Shown here in pieces: positions 10,566-28,182 of a stretch of DNA of 64,000 nucleotides. The DNA lies in contig NZ_CP104311.1 in assembly GCF_036864975.1 (NCBI RefSeq), positions 722,001-786,000 on the forward strand. The letters run 5' to 3'. Origin of the DNA: Methylococcus capsulatus. GTDB lineage: Bacteria; Pseudomonadota; Gammaproteobacteria; Methylococcales; Methylococcaceae. The notes beneath the pieces were generated by a model that did no database searches, was not told the DNA's origin, and was given only the letters and a program-made list of their open reading frames with translations. The translations under genes were made by a program, and so were the position numbers. Each line of letters begins with the position of its first letter. The stretch's first letter is position 1.

Positions 10566-11157
10566 ATGGATTTCCGGATGAACTCTCCCACCGGCAAGGC
10601 CACCCTAGCGTACGCCAGAAACGGAGACTATGCCCACCCCGGCGAAGAGGATGCCGTTGTCGCGGCGGTCGACAGGCTCCCGCGCGAGGGGATCCACCAT
10701 CTGCTGGATGTCGGCTGCGGTTGCGGCATCTGAACCGAAACCTCACCCGGCCCGTATGATCGATCCACCATCTGCTGGATGTCGGCTGCGGTTGCGGCGG
10801 TACCGCCAACTGGTTCCGGCGCCATGGCTGGGGCGAGGTGACCGGGGTGGACATCGACGCCGTGTCGCTCGAATACGCCAGACAGCGCTATCCCGGCGTC
10901 CGGTTCTTGCAGCAGGATGCCTGCCGCATGGAGCCGGAGCAATTCCATGGATTCGACCTGGTTTATCTGTTCACGGCCCTGTACGCCTTCCCCGACCACT
11001 TGGAGGCGCTGCGCCGGATGAGGATGGCCGCGCGGCGCATTGGTACGGGCGGGAACGCAGGACTGAAGTCCGACCGTGACCTGGGCCGTTGGCCTATATG
11101 CAACGCCGCGATTACGCTTAGAATCCGCATGACTGTCCGTCAGGCAGCGTTCGGCTG
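10566..11157 (+). pseudogene. Class I SAM-dependent methyltransferase, broken by a 71-bp repeat-plus-insert
   Basis: The gene opens at ATG 10566 (MDFRMNSPTGKATLAYARNG) and reaches the SAM-binding motif LLDVGCGCG before a stop. Translation resumes in another frame with the same motif and continues as TANWFRRHGWGEVTGVDIDAVSLEYA, then FLQQDACRM. A 37-bp segment (10691-10727) is repeated at 10762-10798 with 34 unrelated bases between. Removing the 71-bp unit rejoins the frames exactly. The C-terminus after LEALRRMRMAARRIG no longer looks like a methyltransferase and the protein is shorter than usual, so there is probably a second lesion. The substrate is unknown. Confidence 0.85.
10691..10798 (+). 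repeat. Direct repeat 37 bp x2 flanking a 34-bp insert
   Basis: Copies at 10691-10727 and 10762-10798 are identical over 37 bases and differ immediately on both sides (G/C on the left, A/G on the right). The 34 bases between, 10728-10761, are not part of the methyltransferase reading. Within the repeat a dyad ATCCA / TGGAT encloses an 8-nt loop ending TCTGC. The unit has the proportions of one CRISPR repeat plus spacer; see findings. Confidence 0.95.
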
Positions 11158-11194
11158 AATGGCCGTCCCAGGTCGCGAGCACAGGAGGCAAGAT

Positions 11195-11632
11195 ATGGCT
11201 AAAGCAATTCCCGACGGTTATCACACCGTCATCCCTTATCTGGTGGTACGGGGCGCCGCCGAATTGATCGAATTCATGAAAACCGCATTCGACGCGAAGG
11301 AATGGGAACGGATCATGCGTCCGGACGGCACCGTCGGCCATGCCGAAATGCGAGTCGGCGACTCTGTGATCATGCTGAGCGAAGCCAGAGGCGAGTGGCA
11401 ACCCATGCCCGGCGCGATCTATCTCTACGTCCCCGATGCCGACGCCGCCTACCAGCGCGCACTCGAGGCGGGGGCATCCTCTATCTCACCGCCCGCCAAC
11501 CAGTTCTACGGCGACCGCCACGGTGGCGTACGCGATGCATCGGGCAACATCTGGTGGATCGCCACCCACATTGAGGACGTACCGGCCGCGGAACTCAAGC
11601 AGCGCGCCGAAGTCTTCTTCTCCAAGCACTGA
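11195..11632 (+). CDS. VOC (glyoxalase/PhnB-like) family protein
   Basis: A 145-residue protein with two beta-alpha-beta-beta-beta units. The N-terminal half (YHTVIPYLVVRGAAELIEFMKTAF, then GHAEMRVGDSVIMLSEA) and the C-terminal half (AIYLYVPDADAAYQRALEAGA, then GDRHGGVRDASGNIWWIATH) match the PhnB/YaeR-like group of the vicinal-oxygen-chelate superfamily. Actual reactions in this group are mostly unknown. The start at 11195 follows a good AGGAGG (11183-11188). It stands alone after the broken methyltransferase. Confidence 0.85.
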   Translation: MAKAIPDGYHTVIPYLVVRGAAELIEFMKTAFDAKEWERIMRPDGTVGHAEMRVGDSVIMLSEARGEWQPMPGAIYLYVPDADAAYQRALEAGASSISPPANQFYGDRHGGVRDASGNIWWIATHIEDVPAAELKQRAEVFFSKH

Positions 11633-12116
11633 ACGTTCGCATAAACGCTGACCGCCGCGTCACGCTGCTCCATGCGCCCGACGGCCGCTCCACCGGCACG
11701 CTCAGGCTGCTGAAAGAACGCTGCGCCGCCGCGAACGGCGCATTACGGTCAGATTCGGCCCGGTGCCGGCACTGGACGCGGAACTCGCCGCCGCCCAAGG
11801 CTGACACTTTCAATCGCTCCCGCCCAGCACCAGCCGCCCGGGCGCGCGCCCCAAACCGAGGCGACGCCCCATTATTGAGCGCCTACCACCCAAACGCCCG
11901 TCTAATCAGCCCCATACGGCCATCCAGGAACAGAAGGCTTGCCATGCCTAACGCATAAAGAAATCTATGGCGAATTGAAAAAAGAATAAGCCCGAGGTTT
12001 CGTTTTGAGACGATACGTAATATGATCTTGCGCACATCATTGGTGCATAGTGATTTTGTGCACCTATTTGATGCAAACTACAGTGACGCCAAGACCCCGT
12101 CCAAGAGGAATGCTCC
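11633..12116 (+). other. Intergenic region without a supported gene
   Basis: About 480 bp. The first part (to about 11800) is GC-rich and codon-like, and may be the eroded tail of a gene (RITVRFGPVPALDAELAAA can be read near 11740-11800), but no start or family is recognisable. From about 11880 it becomes AT-rich and contains the dyad GGTGCA-N11-TGCACC (12042-12064), upstream of the small exported protein gene at 12117. Confidence 0.5.
12042..12064. promoter_or_regulatory. Dyad upstream of the small exported protein gene
   Basis: GGTGCA at 12042-12047 and TGCACC at 12059-12064 form a 6-bp inverted repeat with 11 bases between, in AT-rich DNA 53 bp before the ATG at 12117. It may be an operator. 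The half-sites are those of NtrC boxes but in the opposite order, so NtrC binding is not claimed. Confidence 0.3.
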
Positions 12117-12425
12117 ATGCTTACCAAAACCATGACGACAACTACCTTGGGCATAGCGCTGACCATTGGCCTCCTGGCCGGGCAGGCCCATGCCAAACCA
12201 AACATCGTCACCGAAACCGACGTCAAAAGCTGCCGGTTTCTGAAAACGGTCGTGGGATCGTCGGGCTACGGCAAGAAAATCGGGAGCTGGCAGCCCCAGG
12301 CCAAGGCATCCGCCGAAAGAGAGGCCACCCAAATCGGCGCAAGCCACATCGTCTGGGGCGACTTCAAGTCGTTCGGAGCATTCAATGGCATCGCGACCGC
12401 CAAAGCCTACGACTGCGGCAGATAA
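12117..12425 (+). CDS. Small exported protein, DUF4156-like
   Basis: A 102-residue protein with a signal peptide (hydrophobic TTTLGIALTIGLLAGQAHA, cleavage likely near residue 26). The mature part carries SCRFLKTVVGSSGYGKK, then AEREATQIGASHIVWGDF and a C-terminal AKAYDCG. Two cysteines at the start and end may form a disulfide. The pattern resembles the DUF4156/RcsF-like small periplasmic proteins with a core reading ATHIVW; assignment is by recollection of the family pattern only. Function unknown. Confidence 0.7.
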   Translation: MLTKTMTTTTLGIALTIGLLAGQAHAKPNIVTETDVKSCRFLKTVVGSSGYGKKIGSWQPQAKASAEREATQIGASHIVWGDFKSFGAFNGIATAKAYDCGR

Positions 12426-12648
12426 ACCTTCCGCCATGCCAGAGCCGGGGGAGACCGCCCTCCCCCGATCAACCAACAGACTTCCTCAATCCCCGTCGTT
12501 TTGAACAGGGCGGAGTATCCGTCCGGTACTTAATTTCAGCCGGCGCCCCGTCACTATCCTCGCTCTGCATCGGCATTGACACGATTAAACAGGTCGATAT
12601 GCTCGTTAGCATCGGCGAGGAAAAAATGCGACTTCACTTCCCGCCGAA

Positions 12649-13098
12649 ATGTCTGCCGAACACGAACCGGACTACCAGTCCATGCGTGGACTGCACGGGA
12701 TTCAACTTGCGTAAGGCCATGCGCGCGGTCGGCCCGCACCATGACGACACCTTGCATCCCGCCGGTATTCGGGGCCCTCAGTTTTCCCTCCCGGTTGCGG
12801 CGAAGATGGCCGGGCCGGTGGCGGTGACCCGGCTGGCCGAAATGGCTGTGGTGATCGGACCACACTGACCCACGATCTGAACCTGCTGGAAAAGCAAGGA
12901 CTCGTCACCGTGGCACCGGGCCCGGACCGCCGGATCCGATGGGCCGCGATCATGGCACAAGGCCTCGCCGTCCTTCGGCAGGCTTACCCGCTCTGGCAGT
13001 AAACCCAGGCCAGGCTGCTGGCGAAACTCGGGCCAGACCGCCTGCAATCTCTGCGGGGAAACATGGCGACACGGGTCGACGCTGCCCTGGTACGGTGA
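12649..13098 (+). pseudogene. MarR-family transcriptional regulator, decayed
   Basis: A MarR-type winged helix can be read by changing frame. MSAEHEPDYQS begins at 12649; the next frame gives NLRKAMRAVGPHHDDTLHPAG, then KMAGPVAVTRLAEMAVVIG; after a second shift near 12855-12865 comes TLTHDLNLLEKQGLVTV with PGPDRRIRW as the wing. At 13000 a TAA interrupts the tail, which continues in the same frame as TQARLLAKLGPDRLQSLRG to a stop at 13096-13098; TAA for CAA is the likely mutation. Two frameshifts and a nonsense codon make it nonfunctional. It lies upstream of the RND efflux operon, which such a regulator could once have repressed. Confidence 0.8.
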
Positions 13099-13169
13099 AA
13101 TTTTTTCTCGTTTCAGTGCAGATACACTCTTTTGGTCCACCCTGCGGTGGAGGTCGATTTCAACAAACC

Positions 13170-13835
13170 ATGACGCCGCAAAAAAATCCGCCCCCCGCGA
13201 CAAGGCGCCTTTGGGACGGATATCCGGTGCGGCCAAAGGAAACACCGGCGATCGAAACGGCCTGGCTGCGCAAGATTGCCTTGGGGGCGGGGCCGAGGAT
13301 GTCGGCTACGCCAGAATGGAACGGGCCGAGATAGCGCGGCGCGCATTCGATATCCTGCGGGCATTTCCTTGCGCGAAAACCCTGCTTGGGTTTCATCTGC
13401 CACGGCAACCGCGAAACCATCCGCACCCTCAGTCGTTCCATCGCCAATCTCGAACTCCACCCGTTGGCGGATGCGGCAACGACATCGCCCGGCGGATCGT
13501 CCAGACACTGGAACGGTACGGCGGTCCTGGATGCCATGGCCGATCATGACTCCGGCCCCATCGACTACAATCCCTGTCTGGAATGTGAGCCTTGCGTCGG
13601 TGCCTAATCAGCGGGAGGGATCGGGAAGGACGGCCATTTCGATTTTTCTGCCTGTCATACCCATCACTTCCGGGAGTTCATGGAAGGCGCCGTCGACTGG
13701 GCCGATACGATCGCCGCCGGCGCATCGGGCTAGCGGAAAATAGATCACCGAAGCGGCATCCCTGTGGCAAGGCCTTCTCGTTCGGGGCGGACTATAAAGC
13801 CGCCTACGGCCTGCCGGTGATGTCCCGCGTGATTC
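13170..13835 (+). pseudogene. 4Fe-4S ferredoxin-like / QueG-type iron-sulfur protein, decayed
   Basis: Pieces in several frames line up as one gene. They read TAWLRKIALGAG, then GAEDVGYARMERAEIA, then ILRAFPCAKTLLGF, then CHGNRETIRTLSRSIANLEL. After an apparent internal deletion come GPIDYNPCLECEPCVGA and, in another frame, KDGHFDFSACHTHHFREFM, then SFGADYKAAYGLPV. The CxxCxxC-type segment and the later SACHTHHF and AAY segments match a family of cytosolic 4Fe-4S double-cluster proteins as I recall it. Key cluster cysteines have been lost. At least three frame changes and a stop at 13731 show it is dead. It sits between the marR relic and the efflux operon. Confidence 0.65.
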
Positions 13836-13969
13836 CCCCTTGCCATGAACAGGGAAAAAACGTTATGAAATGCCTTGCCCGCCTTGCGGGCCACGCCGTC
13901 CAAAGTTCAGGACTTTACGCCCGCCGAGGTGCTCGCGTGGTCGCCTCCGCCAGGGCCAGGGAATCCTCC

Positions 13970-15082
13970 ATGACTGCCACCCTTCCGTCGAAACCGGGAA
14001 GCTTCATCCCCATCGCTCTCCTCGCGATTTTCTCGGCGCTCGCGGCCTGCTCCGACAGCCGCGGCGGAGCGGAGCTGACCCGACCGGTCGTCACCTTTCG
14101 GGTCACCGAAGAAGCCGGTTCCGCCGGCATGAGTTTCGCCGGCGAAATCAGAGCCCGCCATGAAACCACCCTGTCTTTCCGGGTCGCCGGAAAACTGGCC
14201 TCCCGCCCGGTCGAGCTGGGCGACCGAGTCCGGAAAGGCCAGTTGCTGGCCGCTTTGGACCCTGCCGATTACGAACTGGCCATGCAGACGGCCAAAGCCC
14301 AACTGGCCGCCGCCCGGGCAGAACTGGAGTTCACCCGCGAAGATCTTCAACGATACCGCGAACTCCTGGAGCAGCGCGTCGTCAGCCCTCCCGAATTCGA
14401 TCGCCGCCGCACCGCCTTCACCGCCGCGAAGGAGCGCGTGACTGCGCTCGAAGCCCAGGCGGCCCAGGCGTCCAACCAGGTGGACTACACCGAGCTGCGC
14501 GCCGACCGGGGCGGCGTGGTCACTGCGGTCTCGGCGGAAACCGGCCAGGTGCTGGCCGCCGGCCAGCCGGTGCTCACGCTGGCCCGGCTCGACGAACCGG
14601 AGGTCAGCGTCGATGTCCCCGAGCACCGCGTCGGCCGGATCCACTCCGGCCAGGAGGCGGCCGTGACGCTTTGGGCCGACGGGCGGCGGCTCAAGGCCCG
14701 CATCCGCGAGATTGCCGCGGCGGCGGACCCTGCGAGCCGAACCTACCGGGTAAGGGCCACGCTGCTCGAAGGCCAGGAGACTGTCCGTTTCGGCATGACC
14801 GCGACCCTCTGGATCGACGCCGTCGGAACGGAACGGCTGGCGATCCCCCTTTCGGCCGTGTTCAGTCCCCAGCAGCAGCCCGCTCCGCCTCGCGTCTGGC
14901 TGGTGGACGAAGCACAGCTTACGGTCAAATCGGTGCCCGTCCGCCTGAATGGAGTCACGGGCGCGGGACGCGTTTGGGTCGAAGGCGTGGTGCCAGGCCA
15001 GTTGCTGGTGAGTGCCGGCGTGCAGCGCCTGACCGAAGGCCAGAAAGTGCGCATCATCCCCGACCCGACCGGCCGGCCATGA
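13970..15082 (+). CDS. RND efflux membrane fusion (periplasmic adaptor) lipoprotein
   Basis: A 370-residue HlyD/AcrA-type adaptor. It begins MTATLPSKPG, with a lipoprotein signal ending LAAC (Cys27), so it should be anchored in the inner membrane facing the periplasm. Then come the lipoyl half (GKLASRPVELGDRVRKGQLLAALD), the coiled-coil hairpin (residues about 100-165, AAARAELEFTREDLQRYRELLEQ), and beta-barrel and membrane-proximal domains. Stop and next start overlap as ATGA with the pump gene. An in-frame extension upstream is ignored because it precedes the signal peptide. Confidence 0.92.
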   Translation: MTATLPSKPGSFIPIALLAIFSALAACSDSRGGAELTRPVVTFRVTEEAGSAGMSFAGEIRARHETTLSFRVAGKLASRPVELGDRVRKGQLLAALDPADYELAMQTAKAQLAAARAELEFTREDLQRYRELLEQRVVSPPEFDRRRTAFTAAKERVTALEAQAAQASNQVDYTELRADRGGVVTAVSAETGQVLAAGQPVLTLARLDEPEVSVDVPEHRVGRIHSGQEAAVTLWADGRRLKARIREIAAAADPASRTYRVRATLLEGQETVRFGMTATLWIDAVGTERLAIPLSAVFSPQQQPAPPRVWLVDEAQLTVKSVPVRLNGVTGAGRVWVEGVVPGQLLVSAGVQRLTEGQKVRIIPDPTGRP

Positions 15083-18000
15083 AAGGTTTCAACCTCAGCC
15101 AATGGGCGCTGGAACACCGCGCCTTCACCGGCTTCCTCATGACACTCGTCCTGCTGGGCGGGCTTTTCGCCTATTTCCGGCTGGAGCAGCGGGAGGATCC
15201 CGAATTCACCTTCCGCCTGATGGTGGTGAAGACGCTGTATCCAGGGGCGACGGCGCGGGAGGTGGAGGAACAGCTCACCGACCGCCTCGAAAAAAAACTC
15301 CAGGAGCTGCCAGACCTCGACTACCTGCGCAGCTACTCCAAGCCGGGAGAATCGCTGATCTTCGTGGTACCGCGTGAGGACACCTCACCGGAAGAAGTCG
15401 CCGACATCTGGTACCAGGTCCGCAAGAAAGTCGGCGATGTCCGGATGACACTGCCACAGGGGGTCATCGGTCCCTTCTTCAATGACGAATTCGGCGACAC
15501 CTACAGCCTGATTTACGCTTTTTCCGGCGAAGGCTTCGATTACGCCCGGCTCAAGGAGCGGGTGGAAGCGGTCCGGCAGCAGATTCTGCGAGTCAAGGAC
15601 GTGGAAAAGGCCGATCTCATCGGCGCCCAGGAAGAAAAAATCTACCTCGAGTTTTCCGACAAGAAGATGGCCCGCCTGGGACTGGACGCCACCGAGGTCG
15701 CCGCCGCCCTGCAGACGCAGAACGCCATGGCGCCGGCGGGAACGGTGAACACCGGGGCGGGCGATTTGCCGGTGCGGATCACCGGAACTTTCGACTCGGT
15801 GGAGAACGTGGCGAATCTCGCGGTGCGCATCGGCGGCCGGACCTTCAGGGTCAGCGACTTCGCCGAGGTCAGGCGCGGCTATGTCGACCCGCCGGAATTC
15901 CGGATGCGTTTCAACGGCAAGGATGTGATCGGGCTGGGCATCGCCATGAACCGGAAGGGCGATGTGCTGGCTCTGGGAAAGGCCCTGGACGCCACGCTAA
16001 AGCGCGTCGAAGGCGAACTGCCGATCGGCATCGCGGTGGAAAAGGTCGCCGACCAGGCGCAGGTCGTCCGCCGCTCCATCGGCGAATTCAAACGCACATT
16101 CTTCGAAGCGCTGGCGGCGGTGCTCCTGGTCAGCTTCCTGAGCCTGGGGATTCGGGCGGGCGCGGTCGTTGCGCTCACGGTGCCCTTGGTGCTGGCCGCC
16201 ACCCTGCTCGGCATGCTGCTGGCCGGCATCGCCCTGCACCGCATCTCCCTAGGAGCGCTGATCCTGGCGCTGGGCCTGCTGGTGGACGATGCCATGATCG
16301 CCATCGAGATGATGGCCCGTAAGCTCGAGGAAGGCTGGGACCGGATGCGAGCCGCGACTTTCGCCTACACTGCCACCGCCTTTCCGATGCTCACCGGTAC
16401 CCTGATCACCATCGCCGGCTTCCTGCCGGTGGGTCTAGCCCGCTCCCAGGCGGGCGAATACACGCAAGCGATCTTCCAGGTGGTGGGGCTCTCGCTCATG
16501 TTGTCCTGGTTCGGGGCGGTGATCTTCACGCCTTACCTGGGATTCATGGCGCTCAGGCCGAAAGGTGCCGGATCGGCCCATGAGCTCTACGACACCCCCT
16601 TCTACAACCGTCTGCGCAGAGGGGTGGCGGCCTGTGTGGAGCATCGCGGCAAAGTAATCCTGGCAACGGCCGCGCTGTTCGCCCTCGGCATCGCGACCTT
16701 GACCCGGGTACCGGAGCAGTTTTTTCCGCTGTCGAACCGGCCGGAGGTCGTGATCGACCTGTGGCTGCCCGAAGGAAGCAGCTTCGCGCAAACCGAGGCC
16801 GCCGCCAAGCGTATGGAATCGGTTCTGGCCCATGACCCGGACGTGTTGAGTTACGCGACCTACATCGGTGGCGGCAGCCCGCGTTTTTTCCTGCTCATCG
16901 TGCAACAGCTCGCCAATGCCAACCTGGCCGAATTCGTGGTGATGACGGGCGACAATGGCGCCCGCGAACGGGTCATGCGACGGATCCGCCAGGCACTCGC
17001 CGCGGATTTTCCGGAAGTACGTGGGCGCGCCATGCGGCTCAACGTCGGTCCGCCGATGGATTATCCCGTGGTGTTCCGGGTGTTCGGCAAAGACCCCGCC
17101 GTCGTCCGCGGCATCGCCGACCAGGTGGCGGCGGTCGTGCGGGCCAACCCGCATACGGTGGACGTAAACGACGACTGGCACGAGCGGATTCCCGCGCTGC
17201 GGCTGGTGCTGGACCAGGACAAGGCGCGGGCCCTGGGGGTCAGCACGGCTTCTCTCGCCCGCGTCCTACAGGCTCATTACAGCGGCGTGACGGTAGGACA
17301 GCTCCGCGAAAACGACCAGCTCATCGATATCGTCTGGCGCGCCCAGACCCGGTTGCGCACGGACACTGCAGGTCTGCCCGACCTCGCCGTACCCACCGGC
17401 AGCGGCCAACCGGTACCGCTGTCCCAATTGGTGCGGTTCGAAACGGTGTTCGAGGACGGCGTGCGCTGGCGACGCAACCGTTTCCCCGCTATTTCGGTGC
17501 GCGCCGACGTGACGGACGGCGTGCTGGCGCCCGACGTCGCAGCGGAAATAGAACCGGCGCTCAAGCCCATCCTCGATGAACTGCCGCCCGGCTATTTCGT
17601 CGAAACCGGCGCCGCCCGGGAGGACGCGTGGACCGCCCAGAAATCGATCCTGGTCTGGATTCCCTTAGTGCTGGTGGCCACGCTCTTGCTGTTGATGCTG
17701 CAGTTGCAGAATCTGTCCCGGACCTTTCTGGTCTTCGTCACGGCGCCCCTGGGCGTGATCGGCGCCGCCTTCGCCCTCCTCCTGTTCCAGGCGCCGTTCG
17801 GATTCGTGGCTCTGCTCGGGATCATCGCTCTGGCAGGCATGATCATGCGCAATTCGGTCATCCTGGTGGACCAGATCGAACAGGATGAAAAAGCCGGTCT
17901 CGATACTCGCCGCGCCATCATCGAATCCACGGTCCGCCGTTTCCGGCCGATCATGCTCACAGCGGCGGCCGCCATACTTGCCATGATCCCACTGTCCACC

Positions 18001-18132
18001 AACGACTTTTTCGCTCCGCAGGCGATCGCGATCATGGGCGGCCTCAGCGTCGCCACCGTGCTGACGGTATTCTTCCTGCCGGCGCTCTACGCGGCCTGGT
18101 TCAAGGTCGAACGGCGCGAGGGGGCTGCATGA
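15079..18132 (+). CDS. RND family efflux pump, inner-membrane transporter
   Basis: A 1017-residue AcrB-type proton antiporter: one N-terminal membrane helix, a large periplasmic loop, five helices, and the same again. The proton-relay acidic pair is seen in LLVDDAMIAIEMM in the fourth helix region, with many periplasmic porter-domain motifs such as YPGATAREVEEQLTDRLEKKL. It looks closer to the multidrug/unknown-substrate (HAE1-like and proteobacterial YegN-like) groups than to heavy-metal CusA, as the methionine triad is not obvious. It is sandwiched between adaptor and outer membrane channel genes in one operon with overlapping ends. Confidence 0.93.
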   Translation: MKGFNLSQWALEHRAFTGFLMTLVLLGGLFAYFRLEQREDPEFTFRLMVVKTLYPGATAREVEEQLTDRLEKKLQELPDLDYLRSYSKPGESLIFVVPREDTSPEEVADIWYQVRKKVGDVRMTLPQGVIGPFFNDEFGDTYSLIYAFSGEGFDYARLKERVEAVRQQILRVKDVEKADLIGAQEEKIYLEFSDKKMARLGLDATEVAAALQTQNAMAPAGTVNTGAGDLPVRITGTFDSVENVANLAVRIGGRTFRVSDFAEVRRGYVDPPEFRMRFNGKDVIGLGIAMNRKGDVLALGKALDATLKRVEGELPIGIAVEKVADQAQVVRRSIGEFKRTFFEALAAVLLVSFLSLGIRAGAVVALTVPLVLAATLLGMLLAGIALHRISLGALILALGLLVDDAMIAIEMMARKLEEGWDRMRAATFAYTATAFPMLTGTLITIAGFLPVGLARSQAGEYTQAIFQVVGLSLMLSWFGAVIFTPYLGFMALRPKGAGSAHELYDTPFYNRLRRGVAACVEHRGKVILATAALFALGIATLTRVPEQFFPLSNRPEVVIDLWLPEGSSFAQTEAAAKRMESVLAHDPDVLSYATYIGGGSPRFFLLIVQQLANANLAEFVVMTGDNGARERVMRRIRQALAADFPEVRGRAMRLNVGPPMDYPVVFRVFGKDPAVVRGIADQVAAVVRANPHTVDVNDDWHERIPALRLVLDQDKARALGVSTASLARVLQAHYSGVTVGQLRENDQLIDIVWRAQTRLRTDTAGLPDLAVPTGSGQPVPLSQLVRFETVFEDGVRWRRNRFPAISVRADVTDGVLAPDVAAEIEPALKPILDELPPGYFVETGAAREDAWTAQKSILVWIPLVLVATLLLLMLQLQNLSRTFLVFVTAPLGVIGAAFALLLFQAPFGFVALLGIIALAGMIMRNSVILVDQIEQDEKAGLDTRRAIIESTVRRFRPIMLTAAAAILAMIPLSTNDFFAPQAIAIMGGLSVATVLTVFFLPALYAAWFKVERREGAA

Positions 18133-18200
18133 GAAATTCGTGGGGAACGAATTTGGACAGCCGGCGGCTGCCCGAAGGAGGCGCGCTACGGAGGACGCGC

Positions 18201-19649
18201 ATGAAGCCGTTCCGTCAGACCTTGACCGGCGCTCTGGCCGTAAGCCTCCTATGCGGATGTACGCCGACTCGGGTCGCTCTCCCGCCAGCCCCGTCCGCAC
18301 CCGCAAACTGGGCTCAGGCACCCGCGGTGCCAACATCCGAGCCTGCGGCCTTGAAGCACTGGTGGAAGAAATTCGACGACCCGGTTCTCGATGGACTGAT
18401 CGACCTCGCACTGGCTGCCAACTCGGATCTTCGGAGCGCCCAGTCCCGGGTGAGGGAAGCTGCGGCCATGGTGGTCGTTACCGAATCCTCGCTTTATCCC
18501 GGCATCGACTTCTTCACTTCCGGCGGACGCGAAAAACGGATCGACCGCATCATTGCCGTGCCAGGTGCCAAGGGCTATCAGCTGATCACCCCCACCGCCG
18601 ACATGGTGACCGGTGGCATCGCCGCACGCTGGGAGCTGGACATCTTCGGCCAGCGCCACCTGGAAGCCGAAGCAGCGGCGGCGCAGGCGCTGGGCGTGGA
18701 AGAAACGCTGCACGCCGCCCAGGTCGGCCTGCTGGCGCAAGTGGCTACGAACTACCTGGAACTGCGCGGCGTGCAGCAGCAGACGGCCCTGTTCGAAGAC
18801 AATCTCAATGTGCAGCGTGAGCGGCTGAAAACGCTGAAAGCCTTTTACCGCGCCGGCCTCGCCGAGGAAGCCAGCGTCGCCGGACAGGAAGCACTGTTGC
18901 AAAGCGCGGAGGCGGCCCTGCCGGCACTGAACGAAACCGCCATCCGCCTGATCCATCGCCTGAGCGTGCTGACCGGTCAGCCGCCGCAGGCGCTGCAGGC
19001 CAGGCTGACCAAACCCCTTCCGTTGCCGGCCTCGACCCCTGCCGTCCCCAATTTGTTGCCGTCGAGCCTGCTCGCGCAGCGCCCCGACCTTCGCCAGGCC
19101 CAGGCCGAAGTCATCGCCGCGGCGGCCAGCCTGGGGGCTGCCCGCGCCGACCTGCTGCCGAAACTGGTGCTCTCGGCCAGCGGTGGCTTCGGGGCCCTAG
19201 CGGTCGGCGGTTTCCCCAGCCTGGCCGAAAGCGTCTACGCCCTCGGCTCGGGCCTCACCGCACCGATTTTCAACGCAGGACGCATCCGCGCGCAGATCGC
19301 CGCCGCCGACGCAAGGCTCGACCAAGTGGCCGCGAGTTACGAAAAGACCTTTCTGGCGGCGCTCGAAGACGTGGAAAACGCCTTCCTCGCGCACCGCACG
19401 GCGAATGAGCGCTGCAACCGACTGGCAGACGCAGAAACCGCTGCAGAACATGCCCGGCATTCGACCGAAGCACTGTATCGACGGGGAGCGGCGAATTACC
19501 TTGCGGTGCTGGACTCGAAAGCTTCGAAACTGTCCGTCCTTGGCGAAAACGTCAAAGCCCGAACCACCGCGCTGGTTGCGCTGGTCTCCTTATACCGGGC
19601 GTTCGGCGGAGGCTGGCTGGATGAACCGGTTGCCGTTAAAACGGACTGA
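18201..19649 (+). CDS. Outer membrane efflux lipoprotein, NodT/OprM family
   Basis: A 482-residue TolC-like channel. It starts MKPFRQTLTG with a lipobox LCGC (Cys20). Two repeated helical halves follow (ANSDLRSAQSRVREAAAMV and later QAEVIAAAASLGAARADLLP), with VLSASGGFG and TAPIFNAGRIRAQI typical of the OprM family. The open frame begins upstream at 18129, overlapping the pump stop, but the signal peptide shows that ATG 18201 is the real start. It completes the tripartite efflux system across the cell envelope. Confidence 0.92.
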   Translation: MKPFRQTLTGALAVSLLCGCTPTRVALPPAPSAPANWAQAPAVPTSEPAALKHWWKKFDDPVLDGLIDLALAANSDLRSAQSRVREAAAMVVVTESSLYPGIDFFTSGGREKRIDRIIAVPGAKGYQLITPTADMVTGGIAARWELDIFGQRHLEAEAAAAQALGVEETLHAAQVGLLAQVATNYLELRGVQQQTALFEDNLNVQRERLKTLKAFYRAGLAEEASVAGQEALLQSAEAALPALNETAIRLIHRLSVLTGQPPQALQARLTKPLPLPASTPAVPNLLPSSLLAQRPDLRQAQAEVIAAAASLGAARADLLPKLVLSASGGFGALAVGGFPSLAESVYALGSGLTAPIFNAGRIRAQIAAADARLDQVAASYEKTFLAALEDVENAFLAHRTANERCNRLADAETAAEHARHSTEALYRRGAANYLAVLDSKASKLSVLGENVKARTTALVALVSLYRAFGGGWLDEPVAVKTD

Positions 19650-19680
19650 CAGGAACCCCGACTTCGGCGATGCAGGTGGC

Positions 19681-20061
19681 TCATTCCCCCAAAGCCTCCA
19701 GCAGCTTCGCCTCGCCCTTGATCACCTCGCCTCGTCCCCAGGCCGTTACGCCCTCCACGAACCAGCGCGGATCGGTAGGGTGCGGCAGGACGATGTCGAA
19801 CTCGGCATAAAACGAACCGTCTCCATGGAATTTAATCTGCCCGACGCTATGACCGCGGGCGTCACGCCAATGGCCGCAGAGGGTCTCTTCGCCGCTGTAG
19901 GGGTCCCTGCTGGATTCGAACTCCGCCTGGTCATAGAAGGGCAACCGCGCAAGCCGGCCCGGGGCGATACCCAACTTCTCGATTTCGTCCAGGAGCCTTG
20001 CGCAGACGGCCTCGCCGCAGCGTCGAATCTCGGCATCAATCGTCGTCGTCATCGTCGTCAT
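19681..20061 (-). CDS. Conserved hypothetical protein at the end of the rnf operon
   Basis: A 126-residue soluble protein, MTTMTTTIDAEIRRCGEAVC at its start (a second ATG at 20052 is equally possible). It has a helical N-terminal part and a beta-rich centre (AEFESSRDPYSGEETLCGHW, then FHGDGSFYAEFDIVLPHP), with a WFVEGVTAWG motif near the end. I do not recognise the family. Its first codons overlap the 3' end of rnfH through a run of GAT/GAC-type triplets, so it is translationally coupled to the rnf operon and may help assemble or regulate the Rnf complex. Confidence 0.75.
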   Translation of the reverse strand: MTTMTTTIDAEIRRCGEAVCARLLDEIEKLGIAPGRLARLPFYDQAEFESSRDPYSGEETLCGHWRDARGHSVGQIKFHGDGSFYAEFDIVLPHPTDPRWFVEGVTAWGRGEVIKGEAKLLEALGE

Positions 20062-20326
20062 CAGAAGCGATCTTGCGACGCCGCACCGTCTTGGGATCGG
20101 CCGTGATGGGCCGGTATATCTCAATGCGGTCACCTTCCTTCACCGGGGCGTCCAGTTTCACCAGTTTGCCGAAGATACCGACTTTCTGGACGCTCAGATC
20201 GATCTCCGGAAACCGTTCCAGAATGCCCGAATAGCGGATGGCCTGTTCGACCGTGCTATCATCCGGCATTTCCATCCGGAGCCACAATTGGCGGTCGGCA
20301 TCCGCATAGCAAACGCCCACGTTCAT
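20036..20326 (-). CDS. rnfH: RnfH family protein
   Basis: A 96-residue ubiquitin-fold (beta-grasp) protein of the RnfH/UPF0125 family: MNVGVCYADADRQLWLRMEM, then TVEQAIRYSGILERFPEIDL and VGIFGKLVKLDAPVKEGDRIEIYRP. It ends with eight consecutive aspartates coded by a triplet repeat. RnfH is often found with rnf genes and its role is unsettled. It starts 10 bp after rnfE and overlaps the next gene by 17-26 bp. Confidence 0.92.
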   Translation of the reverse strand: MNVGVCYADADRQLWLRMEMPDDSTVEQAIRYSGILERFPEIDLSVQKVGIFGKLVKLDAPVKEGDRIEIYRPITADPKTVRRRKIASDDDDDDDD

Positions 20327-20336
20327 CCCGTCTCCT

Positions 20337-21023
20337 TCAAGTCTCCACCACCGTTTCGCCCACCGTGATCGACCGGCGCTGGCGGACGGCCAGCCGCTTG
20401 TCGATCAGCTTTTTCCCCGCCAGCAGGAAACCGAGCATGAGGAACCCGCCCGGCGGCAGCGCCATCAGCAGGAACCCGCGGTAGCCGTGAATGAACGTCG
20501 TTTCCAGCCAAGCGAACGAATCGCCCATCAAAAGGCGTGCACTGGCGAACAAGGTACCTGCGCCAAGCACTTCCCGGGCCGCCCCCAACACCACCAGGGC
20601 CAAGGTGAAACCCAGCCCCATCATCAGCCCGTCCATCGCCCCATACGCCACGGGATGGCGCGAAGCATAGGCCTCGACCCGGCCCAGGATGGCACAGTTG
20701 GTCACGATCAGGGGGATGAACAGGCCCAGCACCTTATGCATCTCGTGCAACCAGGCATTCATCATCATGTCCACCAGCGTCACCACCATGGCGATGAGCA
20801 CCACGAACACCGGGATGCGGATCTCCGAGGGGATCAATACCCGTACCCAGGAAACCAGAACATTGCATACGACCATGACCGCCAGGGTGGCCAGCCCCAT
20901 GCCGAGCCCGTTGGTCGCGGTGCCGGTGACGGCCAGCAGCGGACACAGGCCGATGCTCTGGCTGAAGACGATGTTGTTGTCCCACAAGCCGTCGCGGCTG
21001 ATTTTGCGAAATTCCGGATTCAT
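20337..21023 (-). CDS. rnfE: Rnf electron transport complex subunit E
   Basis: RnfE is an integral membrane subunit of the Rnf complex, which couples ferredoxin:NAD oxidoreduction to ion transport across the inner membrane. The 228-residue protein has about six membrane helices and the family patterns NNIVFSQSIGLCPLLAVT and FIPLIVTNCAILGRVEAYAS, the latter with the cysteine that, with RnfA, holds a membrane 2Fe-2S cluster. It overlaps rnfG by 4 bp. Confidence 0.96.
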   Translation of the reverse strand: MNPEFRKISRDGLWDNNIVFSQSIGLCPLLAVTGTATNGLGMGLATLAVMVVCNVLVSWVRVLIPSEIRIPVFVVLIAMVVTLVDMMMNAWLHEMHKVLGLFIPLIVTNCAILGRVEAYASRHPVAYGAMDGLMMGLGFTLALVVLGAAREVLGAGTLFASARLLMGDSFAWLETTFIHGYRGFLLMALPPGGFLMLGFLLAGKKLIDKRLAVRQRRSITVGETVVET

Positions 21024-21724
21024 CGTTGACCTCCTGTTGCGGGCAATACCAGCTCGGTGCGGTGCCGCCGGAAGAACTCAAGGCCCTTGAACACCCCCCC
21101 CACCACCGCACGCGGGGTGATGGTGGCGCCGGCGAACTGGTCGAAATCACCGCCGTCCTTCTTGACCCGCCAGCGCTCGTCCGAGGTGTTGTCCAGCGAA
21201 CGGCCGGAAAAGGACAGAATCCAGTCCGACTTGGCAATTTCGATCTTGTCGCCCAGCCCGGGGGTTTCGGCATGGGCCACCACCCGCACCCCCAGCACCG
21301 TACCGTCGGCCTTCACCCCCATGACCAGGGCGATCGGGCCGGAATAGCCGCCGGCAGCGGACAGACTGAAGGCAACGGCGGTGACCTCGCCGTCCTTGCG
21401 AGCCAGATACACCTGAGTCTCGCCCAACCCGGTGTCGGACACTGTTTTCACCTCGTGCAGCAGATCGTTGTCGTGCAAATCGGGCGGCAGCACCTGCTCC
21501 AGCGTCGCCAGCAGGTCCTCGGCCTGGCGCTGCTCGATGGCCCCCTGAGTGGCCAGGTCTCCCACTCCCAGGAGCAGGCTGGCCAGCAGACCCGCGGCAG
21601 CCAGCAGTCCGGTCTGGTAGTCCAGCCGCTGGCGCAGAGTCTCTATGTCGTCGAACCGCTGCCGCAGCCGCTCCCACCGGCTGATGGCTTCCGCCCGCAG
21701 ATTCTCAGGCATCATACTGCTCAT
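21020..21724 (-). CDS. rnfG: Rnf electron transport complex subunit G
   Basis: A 234-residue protein with an N-terminal membrane anchor (TGLLAAAGLLASLLLGVG) and a periplasmic FMN-binding domain. The flavinylation motif appears as FAGATITPRAV, in which the second threonine is the expected covalent FMN site. The ATG at 21724 overlaps the rnfD stop. It carries electrons between RnfD and the periplasmic side of the complex. Confidence 0.94.
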   Translation of the reverse strand: MSSMMPENLRAEAISRWERLRQRFDDIETLRQRLDYQTGLLAAAGLLASLLLGVGDLATQGAIEQRQAEDLLATLEQVLPPDLHDNDLLHEVKTVSDTGLGETQVYLARKDGEVTAVAFSLSAAGGYSGPIALVMGVKADGTVLGVRVVAHAETPGLGDKIEIAKSDWILSFSGRSLDNTSDERWRVKKDGGDFDQFAGATITPRAVVGGVFKGLEFFRRHRTELVLPATGGQR

Positions 21725-22800
21725 CGCCGCCCTCCCGGCAGGTCCAAAGGCCGACCCTTGAGGTCGCGTCCGTAGATGCGCGGCCGTACGTAATGGTCGA
21801 TGACCGGCGTCAGGGCGTTCATCAGTAATACCGAGAACCCGGCGCCTTCCGGGTAAGCCCCCCAGGTGCGGATGACGAAGATGAACAAGCCGCAACCCGC
21901 GCCGAATATGAGTTGCCCGGCCGGACTGCTGGGTGACGTGACGTAGTCGGTGGCGATGAAGAACGCCGCCAGCATCACGGCGCCGGAAGTGAGATGAAAG
22001 ACCGGTCCGGCATAGCGTTCGCCGTCGATCAAGGCGAAGACCGAGGCGGAGAGCGCCACCGTCGTCAGCAGGGATAGGGGGATATGCCAGCTGATGATCT
22101 TTTTCTTCAACAGCCAGAGTCCGCCCACAACCACCAGCAGGGAGGAAGTCTCGCCCAGGCTGCCTGCTTTCCAGCCGAGGATCGCCGCTAGTACGTTGTA
22201 ATGGCCGGAAATCAGCGATTCGCTCAATCCCCGCCCCTGCGAAAGCTCAGTCTTCCAGTTGCCAATCAGCGTCGGTCCGGTCATGCCATCCACCGCAGGC
22301 GCGCCGGCGAAAGTGATGGCCAGACTGTCGAACAATCCCGGCGCGGACGAGGAAAATGGCAGCGAAGGCAGCGTCCAGGTGGTCATTTCCAGCGGAAACG
22401 CCACCAGAAGGGCCACACGCGCCAGCATCGCCGGATTGAACGGGTTCTGACCGAGGCCGCCGAACACCTGTTTGCCGACCACGATGGCGATACCTGCACC
22501 TACCACGCCGATCCACCACGGCGCCCAGGGCGGCAGCGTCATGGCCACCAGCCAGCCGCTCAACATGGCTGAGCCATCCCGCAGAATCGCATTGACCGGT
22601 TTGCCAGCCAGGGCGAGACAAGCCGCCTCGAACACCAGAGCCGAGAGGACGGTCACCGTCCACAGGAAAAACGCGGGCCAACCGAAGATCACCACACCGA
22701 ACACAGTGGCCGGCACCAGCGCCAGCATCACCGCCGCCATGATCCCCTGGACCTGGCTGTCCGAGCGGGTAAAGGGGGCGCTCAACAGCGACAGATTCAT
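21721..22800 (-). CDS. rnfD: Rnf electron transport complex subunit D
   Basis: A 359-residue polytopic membrane subunit with about ten helices, starting MNLSLLSAPFTRSDSQVQ. GKQVFGGLGQNPFNPAMLARVALLVAFP is the family core. The segment around VDGMTGPTLIG (residues about 175-190) is where other RnfD/NqrB proteins bind FMN covalently on a threonine. The start at 22800 is 4 bp inside the end of rnfC. Confidence 0.94.
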   Translation of the reverse strand: MNLSLLSAPFTRSDSQVQGIMAAVMLALVPATVFGVVIFGWPAFFLWTVTVLSALVFEAACLALAGKPVNAILRDGSAMLSGWLVAMTLPPWAPWWIGVVGAGIAIVVGKQVFGGLGQNPFNPAMLARVALLVAFPLEMTTWTLPSLPFSSSAPGLFDSLAITFAGAPAVDGMTGPTLIGNWKTELSQGRGLSESLISGHYNVLAAILGWKAGSLGETSSLLVVVGGLWLLKKKIISWHIPLSLLTTVALSASVFALIDGERYAGPVFHLTSGAVMLAAFFIATDYVTSPSSPAGQLIFGAGCGLFIFVIRTWGAYPEGAGFSVLLMNALTPVIDHYVRPRIYGRDLKGRPLDLPGGRR

Positions 22801-24284
22801 GCGGCCTCCTCCGTCTTGCGCTGCGCCTGAGCCTTGCGCTGGGCAGCCAGGGCCGCTTGCTCGCGCTTTTGGCGCTCGAACCGTGCCTGCCGCTCCTCCG
22901 CCAGGCGCTTGGTCTGCTCGGTCCTGTGCTTCGTCTGTTCCCGCGCCACGAGCTCGCCGCTGGCGTACTTGAAATAGTGTACGAGCGGGATTTCCGAAGG
23001 GCAGACATAGGAGCAGGACCCGCAACTGATGCAGTCCTTCAGGCCGTAGCCAAGCGCGGACTCCAGTTGTCCGGCCCGGATCCGGGCCATCATTTCCAGC
23101 GGCAGGAGTCCCGCAGGACACGCGCTCACGCAGCGTGCGCAGCGGATACAGGCCTTGGCATCGGACGCGGCCACCTCCTGCCGCGACAGCGCCAGGATGC
23201 CGCAGGCGCCCTTGACCAGTGGCACCCTGGGATGCGGCAGAAAATCGCCCATCATGGGACCACCCATGACGTAGCTCGCGGTATCCTCTGGACGATGGCC
23301 GCAGAACGCCAGCAGATCCGCCAGCAACGTCCCGATCGGCGCTTCGACGTTACGCGGCGCACTTACCGCCGAACCGCTGACCGTGACGATACGGCTGACC
23401 AGCGGTCGGCCGAACCGCACTGCCTGTTGCACCGCATAGGCCGTGGCGACGTTGTGCATCAGGACACCGATGTCGGCGGAACGCCCGCCGGCCGGCACCT
23501 CCTTGCCAGTGAAATAGCGGATGAGCTGCTTGTCCCAGCCCATCGGATAAAGCGAGGGCACCTGCTGCACCTGCACCTTGCCGCCATACGGCGCCGCTGC
23601 GGCCGACATCGCGGCAAAAGCCTCGGGCTTGTTGTCCTCAATGCCGACAATCGCCTGGTTGCATTCCAGGCCGTGCAGCATGATGAGGATGCCATCAACG
23701 ACGTCCGCCGCCCGCTCGCGCATCAGCCGATCGTCACAAGTGAGATAGGGTTCGCACTCGCCTCCATTGATCAGCAGGGTCTGAATCCGAGTCTTGCGCC
23801 CCAGGTTCAGTTTCACGGCGGAAGGGAAAGCCGCCCCACCCATGCCCACCACCCCGGCCGCACCGACCCGGGTACTGATTTCCTCCGGCGGCAGACTGAA
23901 CGGATCGGCGAGCTCGCATGTCTCGATCCAGCGATTCTCCCCGTCGGGTTCGAGCAGCAGCGTCGGTGTCGGCAAGGCGGACGGATGGGCCGCGGGATAC
24001 TCCAGGATGTCCGTCACCACGCCCGATGTCGGCGCGTGCACCGGTGCCGAAATCGCGCCCTGACCCGCCGCCAGCAGTTGGCCCCTGAGCACTTTCTCAC
24101 CCACCCGGACCACGGGTTCGGCGGGCTGGCCGGCATGTTGCTGTAGCGACAGATAGAGCCGCTCCGGCAGCGGGAACGCGGTTTCGATGGGCCGGTCGGC
24201 GGTGGACTCTTTACGCGGCTCCGGATGGACGCCGCCGCGAATCCTGCCGGACGTCCCGAACGGGAAGAAGCTGAGCGCCGCCAT
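22797..24284 (-). CDS. rnfC: Rnf electron transport complex subunit C
   Basis: RnfC is the cytoplasmic NADH-oxidising subunit with FMN and two 4Fe-4S clusters. In the 495-residue product GAAGVVGMGGAAFPSAVKL is the nucleotide/FMN loop, LLINGGECEPYLTCDDRLM the NuoF-like region, and CIRCARCVSACP and CISCGSCSYVCP the two cluster motifs. A lysine/arginine/glutamine-rich charged tail follows, as is common in RnfC. The start MAALSFFPFG (24284) lies 2 bp after the rnfB stop. Confidence 0.95.
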   Translation of the reverse strand: MAALSFFPFGTSGRIRGGVHPEPRKESTADRPIETAFPLPERLYLSLQQHAGQPAEPVVRVGEKVLRGQLLAAGQGAISAPVHAPTSGVVTDILEYPAAHPSALPTPTLLLEPDGENRWIETCELADPFSLPPEEISTRVGAAGVVGMGGAAFPSAVKLNLGRKTRIQTLLINGGECEPYLTCDDRLMRERAADVVDGILIMLHGLECNQAIVGIEDNKPEAFAAMSAAAAPYGGKVQVQQVPSLYPMGWDKQLIRYFTGKEVPAGGRSADIGVLMHNVATAYAVQQAVRFGRPLVSRIVTVSGSAVSAPRNVEAPIGTLLADLLAFCGHRPEDTASYVMGGPMMGDFLPHPRVPLVKGACGILALSRQEVAASDAKACIRCARCVSACPAGLLPLEMMARIRAGQLESALGYGLKDCISCGSCSYVCPSEIPLVHYFKYASGELVAREQTKHRTEQTKRLAEERQARFERQKREQAALAAQRKAQAQRKTEEAA

Positions 24285-24286
24285 GG

Positions 24287-24835
24287 TCAAGCCGCCTTCG
24301 CCGTGACCGTGTCCGGACTGGGCCAGCGCCAGTTGCGCAGCGTCACTTTGACGGGATGGAGCCGCAGACATTCGGTCGGACAGACGTCCACGCACTTGCC
24401 GCAGGCGGTGCAGGCATCGGCAATCACGGCATGGATCTGCTTGGGCGCACCCACCAAGGCATCGGTCGGACACACCTTGTAACAGCGGGCGCAGCCGATG
24501 CAGGTGGATTCGTCCACCCGCGCCACCATCGGAACCTGATCCTCCACCTCAGACAAGTCCAGATCGATCGACAACTTGTTGGCCAGCTGCTCGGCAAGCG
24601 CCCGCCCGCCGGGGGGACACAGGGTTGCCGGCGCCTCGCCCGCCACCAGCGCCTCGGCCGCCGGGCGGCAGCCGGGATAACCGCACTGGCCGCATTGCGA
24701 TCCCGGCATCATGGCCTCGATCTCATCGATCAGCGGATTTTCTTCCACTTTCAGATAGCGCGCCGCGGCACCGAGCAGAAACCCGAGCGCGAGCCCCATG
24801 CCGGTCAGGCTGATGATGGCAAACAATATGTACAT
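24287..24835 (-). CDS. rnfB: Rnf electron transport complex subunit B (ferredoxin-type)
   Basis: A 182-residue iron-sulfur subunit. It begins with a membrane anchor (MYILFAIISLTGMGLALGFL), then the Fe-S domain with CGQCGYPGC, and then two ferredoxin motifs CIGCARCYKVCP and CTACGKCVDVCP. RnfB accepts electrons from soluble ferredoxin. The ATG at 24835 is chosen from the membrane anchor; the open frame extends into rnfA. Confidence 0.95.
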   Translation of the reverse strand: MYILFAIISLTGMGLALGFLLGAAARYLKVEENPLIDEIEAMMPGSQCGQCGYPGCRPAAEALVAGEAPATLCPPGGRALAEQLANKLSIDLDLSEVEDQVPMVARVDESTCIGCARCYKVCPTDALVGAPKQIHAVIADACTACGKCVDVCPTECLRLHPVKVTLRNWRWPSPDTVTAKAA

Positions 24836-24858
24836 AGGACTCTCCTTCGGGTGTCGGT

Positions 24859-25440
24859 TCAATGCGTGGCCAATCCTGCAAACCCCATGAACGCCAGGGA
24901 CAGGATGCCTGCCGTGATGAAGGCAATGGGCGGGCCGGTGAAGGACTCGGGCACGCTCATCAAAGCCAGCCGCTCCCGGATGCCAGCGAAAATCACCATG
25001 ACCAGGGTAAACCCCAGCGCCGAGCCAAAGCCAAACAGCGCGCTGTGAATGAAATCGTATTCCTGCTGGATGTTCAGCAGTGCCACCCCCAACACCGCGC
25101 AGTTGGTGGTGATCAGCGGCAGAAAGATACCCAGCACCTGGTACAGCACCGGGCTGGTCTTCTTCACCACCATCTCGGTGAACTGGACCACGGCCGCGAT
25201 CACCAGGATGAACGAGAGGATGCGCAGGAAGCCGATGCCCAGAGGCATCAGGACGAAATGCTCGATGAGCCAGCTCGCCACCGCGGTCAGGGTCAGCACG
25301 AAAGTCGTGGCAAAGCCCATGCCGATGGCTGAATCGAGCTTCCTTGACACCCCCATGAAAGGGCATAGTCCCAAGAACTTGACCAGCACCACGTTGTTGA
25401 CCAGGGCCGTGCCGAGCAGCAACATCAGGTAGTCGTTCAC
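24859..25440 (-). CDS. rnfA: Rnf electron transport complex subunit A
   Basis: A 193-residue membrane subunit with six helices, the counterpart of Rnf[22 protein letters not shown] and [17 protein letters not shown] are the family motifs, with the cysteines that bind the intramembrane 2Fe-2S cluster. I set a GTG start at 25440 ([11 protein letters not shown]), preceded by GAGGAGG at good distance. It is the first gene of rnfABCDGE-rnfH plus the small unknown gene. Confidence 0.93.
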
Positions 25441-25523
25441 ACTCAAAGCCTCCTCGGAGGTTTTAGCTTGGCTAACGCATAACGCATGCCAATGGTGAGC
25501 CGCGGCCCTTACCCCAACAAGTG

Positions 25524-25584
25524 TGTGCAATTGCAGCACCGGGCAGCATCGGCCGCCGAATCGCGGCTTGTCAGGAATTGCACA
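25524..25584. promoter_or_regulatory. Inverted repeat in the rnfA-iscX divergent intergenic region
   Basis: TGTGCAATT at 25524-25532 and its exact complement AATTGCACA at 25576-25584, 43 bp apart. The left arm overlaps a perfect 10-bp palindrome TGCAATTGCA (25526-25535). Centre-to-centre spacing is 52 bp, close to five DNA turns. The site lies between rnfA (minus) and iscX (plus) and could serve a looping or dimeric regulator for one or both. Confidence 0.4.
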
Positions 25585-25726
25585 TGACCCTCCAATTCAT
25601 AGGGCTTTGTCACCTTTGCGACAAACCTGGCCGGTCGCCATAGGGGATGGCCGGGGGATGGAGCCGCCTGGCCGCAAATTTGCTCGGTCCATGAGATGAC
25701 CTTTTCCGACACCTTGGTACCCGCCC

Positions 25727-25921
25727 ATGAAATGGAACGACACCTACGATATTGCCGCCGCCCTCGCCGATCAGCACTCGGACGTCGACCCGCGGTATGT
25801 GCGCTTCACTGATCTGCTGGCATGGATCACGGCGCTGGACGGCTTCGCCGACAGCGCCGACCGATGCAACGAGAAAATTCTGGAAGCGATCCAGATGGCA
25901 TGGATCGATGAGGTCAGCTAA
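25727..25921 (+). CDS. iscX: IscX (YfhJ) iron-sulfur assembly accessory protein
   Basis: A 64-residue acidic protein with the complete IscX pattern: MKWNDTYDIAAALADQHSDVDPRYVRFTDL, then WITALDGFADSADRCNEKILEAIQMAWIDE (quoted in short parts). IscX binds the cysteine desulfurase IscS and iron and tunes cluster assembly. Here it is apart from any isc operon but next to the Fe-S-rich rnf operon, which may explain the location. Confidence 0.93.
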   Translation: MKWNDTYDIAAALADQHSDVDPRYVRFTDLLAWITALDGFADSADRCNEKILEAIQMAWIDEVS

Positions 25922-26042
25922 CAGACAGCGGTCCGGAACCGCCGGAAAGTGCGGCAGCACTTTCCGGCATGGCTTGACGGGCAGGTGAGGCGGGTCGATG
26001 ATGGGTTGTGAACCTTGCTCATTGAACCCTACGAGGCGACCT

Positions 26043-26546
26043 ATGACCGGACCCCGCAAACGATTCGACCCCGCCCACCAGCCGCGCCGGGACAGCATGT
26101 TCGAAGAGCATGTGCACGATCCCTACCGCGCCCGGGGCAAATGGCCGGAGCCAACGGTATGCCCCGAATGCGGTGCCGTCTTCCATCAGGGACGCTGGCA
26201 GTGGGGAGAGGCGGCGCGGGATGCCGAACGGCATCTTTGTCCCGCATGCCAGCGGATGCGCGACCAAGTACCGGCGGGTGAGTTGACGCTGAGCGGGGCT
26301 TTCTTCGTCGCTCACCGTCCGGAAATTCTGAACCTCGTCCGCAACACCGAAACTGCCACCCGGACGGAGCATCCGCTCGAGCGGATCATGGCCATCGAGG
26401 AAAGCGAAGACCGCACCGTCATCACCTTTACCGACAAGCATCTCGCCCATGGCGTCGGGGAGGCGCTGCGGCATGCCTACCAGGGTGAGATGGATTCGCA
26501 CTACACCGATGAGGATGCGCTCCTGCGGGTATCCTGGAGCCGCTGA
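26043..26546 (+). CDS. BCAM0308-like zinc-ribbon protein
   Basis: A 167-residue soluble protein. It starts MTGPRKRFDPAHQPRRDSM and has a four-cysteine zinc ribbon: VCPECGAVFHQGRW and, about 25 residues later, HLCPACQRMRD. The C-terminal half (MAIEESEDRTVITFTDKHL, then GVGEALRHAYQGEM) is an alpha/beta domain. The layout fits the uncharacterised BCAM0308 family, often near ribosome- or stress-related genes. It is followed by a phosphoribosyltransferase relic and a hibernation factor. Confidence 0.75.
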   Translation: MTGPRKRFDPAHQPRRDSMFEEHVHDPYRARGKWPEPTVCPECGAVFHQGRWQWGEAARDAERHLCPACQRMRDQVPAGELTLSGAFFVAHRPEILNLVRNTETATRTEHPLERIMAIEESEDRTVITFTDKHLAHGVGEALRHAYQGEMDSHYTDEDALLRVSWSR

Positions 26547-26630
26547 CAAAGGAGCGAGCCTGGCCGCGGCCGCCGCCAGTCCAGGCACGCGGTGAAGCTG
26601 CCGGAAAAGGGTGAGCAGGCTTCACCGACT

Positions 26631-27310
26631 ATGATCGATCCCTTCCTTCCCTGCGAGTTGGTGACCTGGAATCAGGTGTGCCGGCTATGCCGGCGTGTGG
26701 CCGAAAGCATCCGCGCCTCCGGCTACCGGCCCGAAGCCGTGGTAGCCATCGCCAGGGGCGGTTACGTGCCGACGCGGCTCCTGTGCGATCCTTAGGGCTG
26801 TACGACCTGCAAAGCATCCGTATCGGCCATTACCAGGCAGGGGCACGAAAAACCGAAACGGCGCGCTGTTATTCGCCGCCTCCCGCAAGCGTTTGCGGAC
26901 TCAGGGTGCTGCTGGTCGACGATTGCAGCGATACCGGCGATACCCTCCGCCTGGGCTTGGAGCAGCTTCGAACCTGCCGCACGCGGGACGTCAAAATTGC
27001 GGTACTGCATCACAAAAAGGTTACACCGATCGTGCCGGACTGCTATGGGCGGCAAGTCCGCTCCTGGCGTTGGCTGAGTTACCCCAGGGCACTCACCGAA
27101 GACCTGAGCGGTTTCATCGGCGCCATGGAACCCGACCCGACGACAACGGAAGAGGCCATCCAGCAACTGTATCGCCGGCATGGAATCAAGGCGCCGCGGC
27201 CTTCCGTGGCCTACGTGCTGGCCTTGATACAACAGCGCCCTGGACTCGAGAAAACCGACCCTATCGACGCGGACCGAAAAGGTCTATCGTTGAACATCGA
27301 GCCGAAATGA
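26631..27310 (+). pseudogene. Phosphoribosyltransferase with a single frameshift
   Basis: Type I PRTase. The first part (MIDPFLPCELVTW, then EAVVAIARGGYVPTRLLCD) ends at a TAG near 26793. One missing base there, within LLCD(L)LGLYDLQSIRIGHY, restores the frame and gives VLLVDDCSDTGDTL, the PRPP-binding motif, and a normal C-terminus ending DADRKGLSLNIEPK. This is the only lesion seen, so it is either a very young pseudogene or a sequencing error. The family moves phosphoribosyl groups from PRPP, probably to a purine base. Its end overlaps the hibernation-factor region. Confidence 0.8.
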
Positions 27311-27324
27311 GTGAGGGGGAAGCA

Positions 27325-27891: not shown

Positions 27892-27937
27892 ACACCGGTC
27901 TGCGAATCCCGACAACGCTTTTTTGAGGGGAACCACC

Positions 27938-28159: not shown

Positions 28160-28182
28160 CCCGCGACGCCGCGCCACCGACG

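Follow-up and report, generated by a model that had tools for sequence, protein, structure and literature searches.

Putative natural cases of spacer insertion outside CRISPR arrays were reportedly described in Yersinia pestis and Sulfolobus islandicus by Nivala, Shipman and Church in 2018 (Nat Microbiol 3:310), where a spacer-sized insert is said to be flanked by a repeat-length duplication of host sequence. The three scars that we describe here from the chromosome of a methane-eating strain recorded as Methylococcus capsulatus are of the same form, each being a spacer-sized insert that lies outside the arrays between two copies of a repeat-length host duplication. Non-canonical integration into non-array regions is otherwise known upon overexpression of Cas1-Cas2, mainly in E. 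coli; the section of PMC11788318 that deals with it credits it to Nivala et al. 2018. Unlike that work, the present set comes from a wild Methylococcus with a type I-C system and comprises three scars for which relatives have the empty site.

The type II-A Cas1-Cas2 of Streptococcus thermophilus integrates in vitro at non-CRISPR sites and prefers G at the attacked position, according to the portion of PMC6895254 that covers these assays. The Methylococcus scars resemble these products in lying at non-CRISPR sites, and at two of them (sites 1 and 3) both strands carry a G there. The S. thermophilus events, as that portion presents them, are likely half-site events on plasmids, at sites like the leader-repeat junction, whereas the Methylococcus insertions are completed, chromosomal and without visible leader-repeat likeness. 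Ectopic spacer acquisition, as treated in the relevant part of PMC7999890, also puts a spacer in an unusual place, but inside the CRISPR array, whereas the Methylococcus scars are outside arrays.

Type I-C arrays are described in a survey of CRISPR systems in Methylococcus from 2026 (PMC12924245), whose main text does not use the terms off-target, orphan or evidence level. Among the literature matches listed, none reports off-target spacers in a Methylococcus chromosome. We regard the scars as new examples, and an unusually clear set of them, of a known type of event, in a wild strain with type I-C. The anomaly of 71 bp from which the analysis started is very probably the mark of a spacer that the resident type I-C adaptation machinery integrated off target.

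Insertions in three genes and their empty sites

The window is the whole stretch of 64,000 nucleotides that was analysed (positions 722,001 to 786,000 of contig NZ_CP104311.1) and is part of a one-contig chromosome of 3.43 Mb. Site 1 lies on its forward strand in a methyltransferase gene that is now split into two frames (10566 to 11158, assigned from an open reading frame to 11158, PF13649 and alignments with congeners). A first host copy of 37 nt (10691 to 10727) is followed by a 34-nt insert, the presumed spacer (10728 to 10761), and by a second host copy (10762 to 10798); the repeat search of the window gives a period of 71 from start to start. The frame that begins at the ATG at 10566 reaches LLDVGCGCG within the first copy. 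From the ATC at 10763, within the second copy, it is open again, and there the same motif is followed by GTANWFRR, and the segment 10763 to 11155 by itself matches the methyltransferase domain PF13649 with 57.4 bits in a profile search. The insertion of 71 bp shifts the frame.

The search of five other Methylococcus genomes showed, in all five, just one copy at this place with flanks that match on both sides; the residue-level alignments are with M. capsulatus Texas and a Methylococcus MAG. A neighbouring protein is 96% identical to its counterpart in M. capsulatus Texas, and the locus is 86-88% identical at the DNA level, which makes the organism a Methylococcus, though probably one of another species. 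The same alignments reveal that the gene is shorter than those of congeners by about 300-400 bp in its 3' part. A preliminary description of the window had reported an exact 37-bp direct repeat around 34 unrelated bases, a frame recovered through the SAM motif and a window free of CRISPR arrays, and had looked to orthologues as a check. The repeat and the motif are as described, an array scan of the window found none, and the orthologues have the one copy expected. The description had also seen here a single event in an intact gene. Insertion into an intact gene is not established because the 3' part is also lost.

A second structure of this kind, which is absent from the preliminary description, occurs in the same window. 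Here, two exact direct copies of 38 nt (28365 to 28402 and 28438 to 28475, forward strand) enclose a presumed spacer of 35 nt (28403 to 28437). In our reading, the duplication proper is of 37 nt and one further position agrees by chance, which makes the insert 36 nt. The structure interrupts an oxidoreductase-like gene of the Gfo/Idh type (28153 to 29182, forward strand), assigned from open reading frames, the frame of congeners and PF01408. Two genomes (G002 and G003) have one copy at this site and an uninterrupted frame of 387 aa; the other genomes searched had no match on both sides. The G003 protein scores 24.4 bits with PF01408 against a cut-off of 24, and the profile search gave the gene product a match to diaminopimelate dehydrogenase below cut-off. 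The insertion of 73 bp shifts the frame, and an in-frame stop is also present downstream. At sites 1 and 2, the insertion may have come before or after the further lesion. Just 17.7 kb lies between the two sites (window 10691 to 28475).

Site 3 is outside the window, at 3,196,285-3,196,393 of the contig (L112:9285-9393), and is a 37/35 scar (copy and insert length) in a gene for an OmpR-type response regulator. One copy is present in each of two genomes (G004 and G005), and the other genomes searched were without a match on both sides. The insertion of 72 bp keeps the frame, so that the response regulator remains open with 24 additional residues, which lie at the near edge of the DNA-binding domain (domain match from residue 289).

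At every empty site the two matching segments share 35-39 nt of the relative's sequence, which is about the length of one copy. The second copies at the three sites were probably made by gap repair. The copies are identical across 112 positions summed over the three scars. Because of this identity, because scanning uncovered no diverged scar (below) and because these species are about 7-22% apart in orthologous DNA, the scars are young and specific to this lineage.

Frequency of such structures

We scanned 83 stretches of the genome, the window included (1,704,000 bases, 49.6% of the total), for direct repeats that are exact over 30 nt or more and whose copies lie 5-100 nt apart, leaving both arrays out. 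Six places were found in the 1.70 Mb, of which three are tandem-repeat loci (L061, L118 and L133) and three are the scars. The tandem repeat at L118:11129-11322 has a unit of 72 bp with a palindromic core. The same sample was scanned for imperfect repeats, with at least 28 of 37 positions identical at periods of 60-85. Diverged scars were not found: at periods 71 and 73 the scan returned the exact scars alone, if one disregards L070, where 2000 masked bases (N) match themselves at every period. Its matches in L061, L087, L118, L119, L126 (two), L130 and L132 were rejected as tandem or coding repeats, judged by their periods alone. The window also contains an inverted repeat with arms of 59 nt (1302-1360 and 2000-2058) that are 90% complementary and 639 nt apart.

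Three scars in half of the genome would suggest a total of about six, or of about four after correction for a window that was chosen by its scar. Two congeners have a nearly identical 37-nt I-C array repeat, and the 800,000 bases sampled from them contained no scar. About 1.4 would be expected there at the strain's own rate (3 in 1.70 Mb) and about 0.5 if the rate is taken from the sequence beyond the window (1 in 1.64 Mb); the sample is too small for a difference and shows nothing either way. Loci of other organisms, 419,988 bases in all, had no repeat of 36-38 nt around 33-37 nt; they include one tandem locus (L050) with a 43-nt repeat and a 36-nt gap. A candidate in G003 (L196:6141-6239), with a 38-nt repeat and a 23-nt gap, was rejected as belonging to a slightly diverged AT-rich tandem of 61 bp.

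Resident CRISPR systems and the origin of the inserts

The chromosome has two cas1 loci. Locus A is of type I-C, with matches to the Cas3c, Cas5c, Cas8c, Cas7c, Cas4c and Cas1c profiles, and adjoins an array; cas1 and cas4, the two adaptation genes tested with PADLOC, are both present. Array A (L004:1652-14771) consists of 183 repeats, each of 37 nt. The distance from one repeat start to the next is 71 in 54, 72 in 69 and 73 in 36 of 182 cases, and the spacers are of 34 nt (54 of 181), 35 nt (68) or 36 nt (36) in most cases, these lengths accounting for 158 of the 181. The scars measure 37/34, 38/35 and 37/35. The preliminary description had suggested setting the 37/34 structure against the genome's own CRISPR, and it matches the repeat and the usual spacer lengths of the I-C array. 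Array A is very long, with 179 distinct sequences among its 181 spacers and two spacers that recur.

The inserts differ from one another, each occurs once, and their GC contents are 56, 63 and 34%. At up to three mismatches, a second copy of any of them was found neither in the genome itself nor in 200 relatives, and the local source of the 34 bases that the preliminary description had considered was likewise sought in the genome and not found. The protospacer with a PAM that it had looked to for the insert of site 1 did not emerge from phages, plasmids, IMG/VR or the strain's own genome. For the three inserts, the phage search returned short matches alone (E of at least 1) and the plasmid search returned nothing at E up to 1. 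IMG/VR was scanned six times, with two exact 18-mers from each insert, and 0, 0, 0, 2, 2 and 1 matches came back; these were rejected as protospacers and treated as chance, their identity over the whole insert being 19-24 of 34-35. An 8-kb stretch of array A had no phage match either, so the lack of matches for the inserts says little.

The third insert has 12 nt in common with an array B spacer, a weak overlap. When array spacers were compared with the sampled loci, one of array A aligned to a congener over 29 nt with one mismatch and another over 25 nt with one mismatch, and the remaining array spacer matches were of 17-18 nt. No PAM could be derived from the array spacers; the flanks of the 29-nt and 25-nt matches disagree. 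The insert of site 1 had been called foreign. It is unrelated to its target and present in a single copy, and no protospacer was found for it; the inserts may derive from phage or other mobile DNA.

Staggered double-strand breaks, when long overhangs are filled in and a short filler is captured, can in principle be repaired to leave a duplication flanking the filler. We consider such repair, or replication template switching, a very improbable origin of the scars: a source for the inserts is missing from the genome at the mismatch level given above, and neither process offers a reason why three independent events should have dimensions of 37-38 and 34-35, which are those found in the resident array.

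The second system has its own cas1 and an array, and its Cas1 might also have carried out off-target integration. Locus B is type III-B-like, with Cmr6, Csx1, Cas1 and a divergent second Cas1, and its array B comprises 59 repeats of 36 nt at distances of 68-72. It is very unlikely to be the agent. If copies may be lengthened by chance matches, the likelihood of the lengths 37, 37 and 38 is 0.083 for a 37-nt duplication and 0.009 for a 36-nt one, and array B, with its 58 periods, has none of 73, the period of site 2. Both results point to the I-C integrase as the likely agent. As observations on the III-B-like locus, two Cas1-like genes are adjacent there (L006:14196-15940), one of which matches a profile for a diverged, second-in-locus Cas1, and the second Cas1-like match is also found in three congeners.

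A transposon or IS footprint, or an assembly artefact, can be dismissed almost entirely: a transposase-like open frame (L112:9926-10996), which we take to be of IS110 type, does lie near site 3, but transposon target duplications are far shorter than 37 nt and the inserts differ and occur once each, while an artefact would have had to reproduce CRISPR dimensions three times in a one-contig chromosome.

Spacer integration by Cas1-Cas2, as the preliminary description had proposed, is well supported by the I-C dimensions, the three scars, the empty sites and the single-copy inserts. The agent would be the native type I-C Cas1-Cas2, probably with Cas4, loaded with a prespacer processed to about 34-36 nt. 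The complex would have attacked the two strands of ordinary chromosomal sequence, and not of the leader-proximal CRISPR repeat, at points staggered by 37 bp, and repair of the gaps would have left 37 bp duplicated on either side of the inserted spacer. Events would have taken an identical course at two more places, window 28365-28475 and contig position 3,196,285.

Integration targets and wider meaning

The preliminary description had assumed a target that resembles the CRISPR repeat by chance. At the three sites, a small number for this comparison, the targets are identical to repeat A at 7-14 of 37 positions, against a background of 9.3 +/- 2.6, and have no overall likeness to it. The scars were also rejected as canonical CRISPR arrays in view of this low number of matching positions, their two copies only and their location within coding sequence. 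No IHF-like motif was found in the 100-bp flanks of the three sites. At sites 1 and 3 the first base on both strands is G, the same as in the array repeat; site 2 has G at one of the two attack positions at best. With 31% G, the probability of finding G at all four borders of sites 1 and 3 is about 0.01, and a G preference at the borders, coming from three sites, is suggestive only.

Natural evidence of CRISPR integrases misfiring into host chromosomes is scarce in the literature that we found or recall, and here a single wild genome provides three scars, with empty sites as controls. Genomes can easily be scanned for the signature: an exact repeat that stands alone, is as long as the resident CRISPR repeat and encloses an insert of spacer length. 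The rate of off-target adaptation, its target preference and its mutational cost are in this way measurable across prokaryotes by sequence alone. More tentatively, the Methylococcus I-C integrase may be a recurrent mutagen of the chromosome. Deletion between the 37-bp repeats could reverse its insertions, and off-target integration would then possibly offer both a reversible alteration of genes and a seedbed of new arrays.
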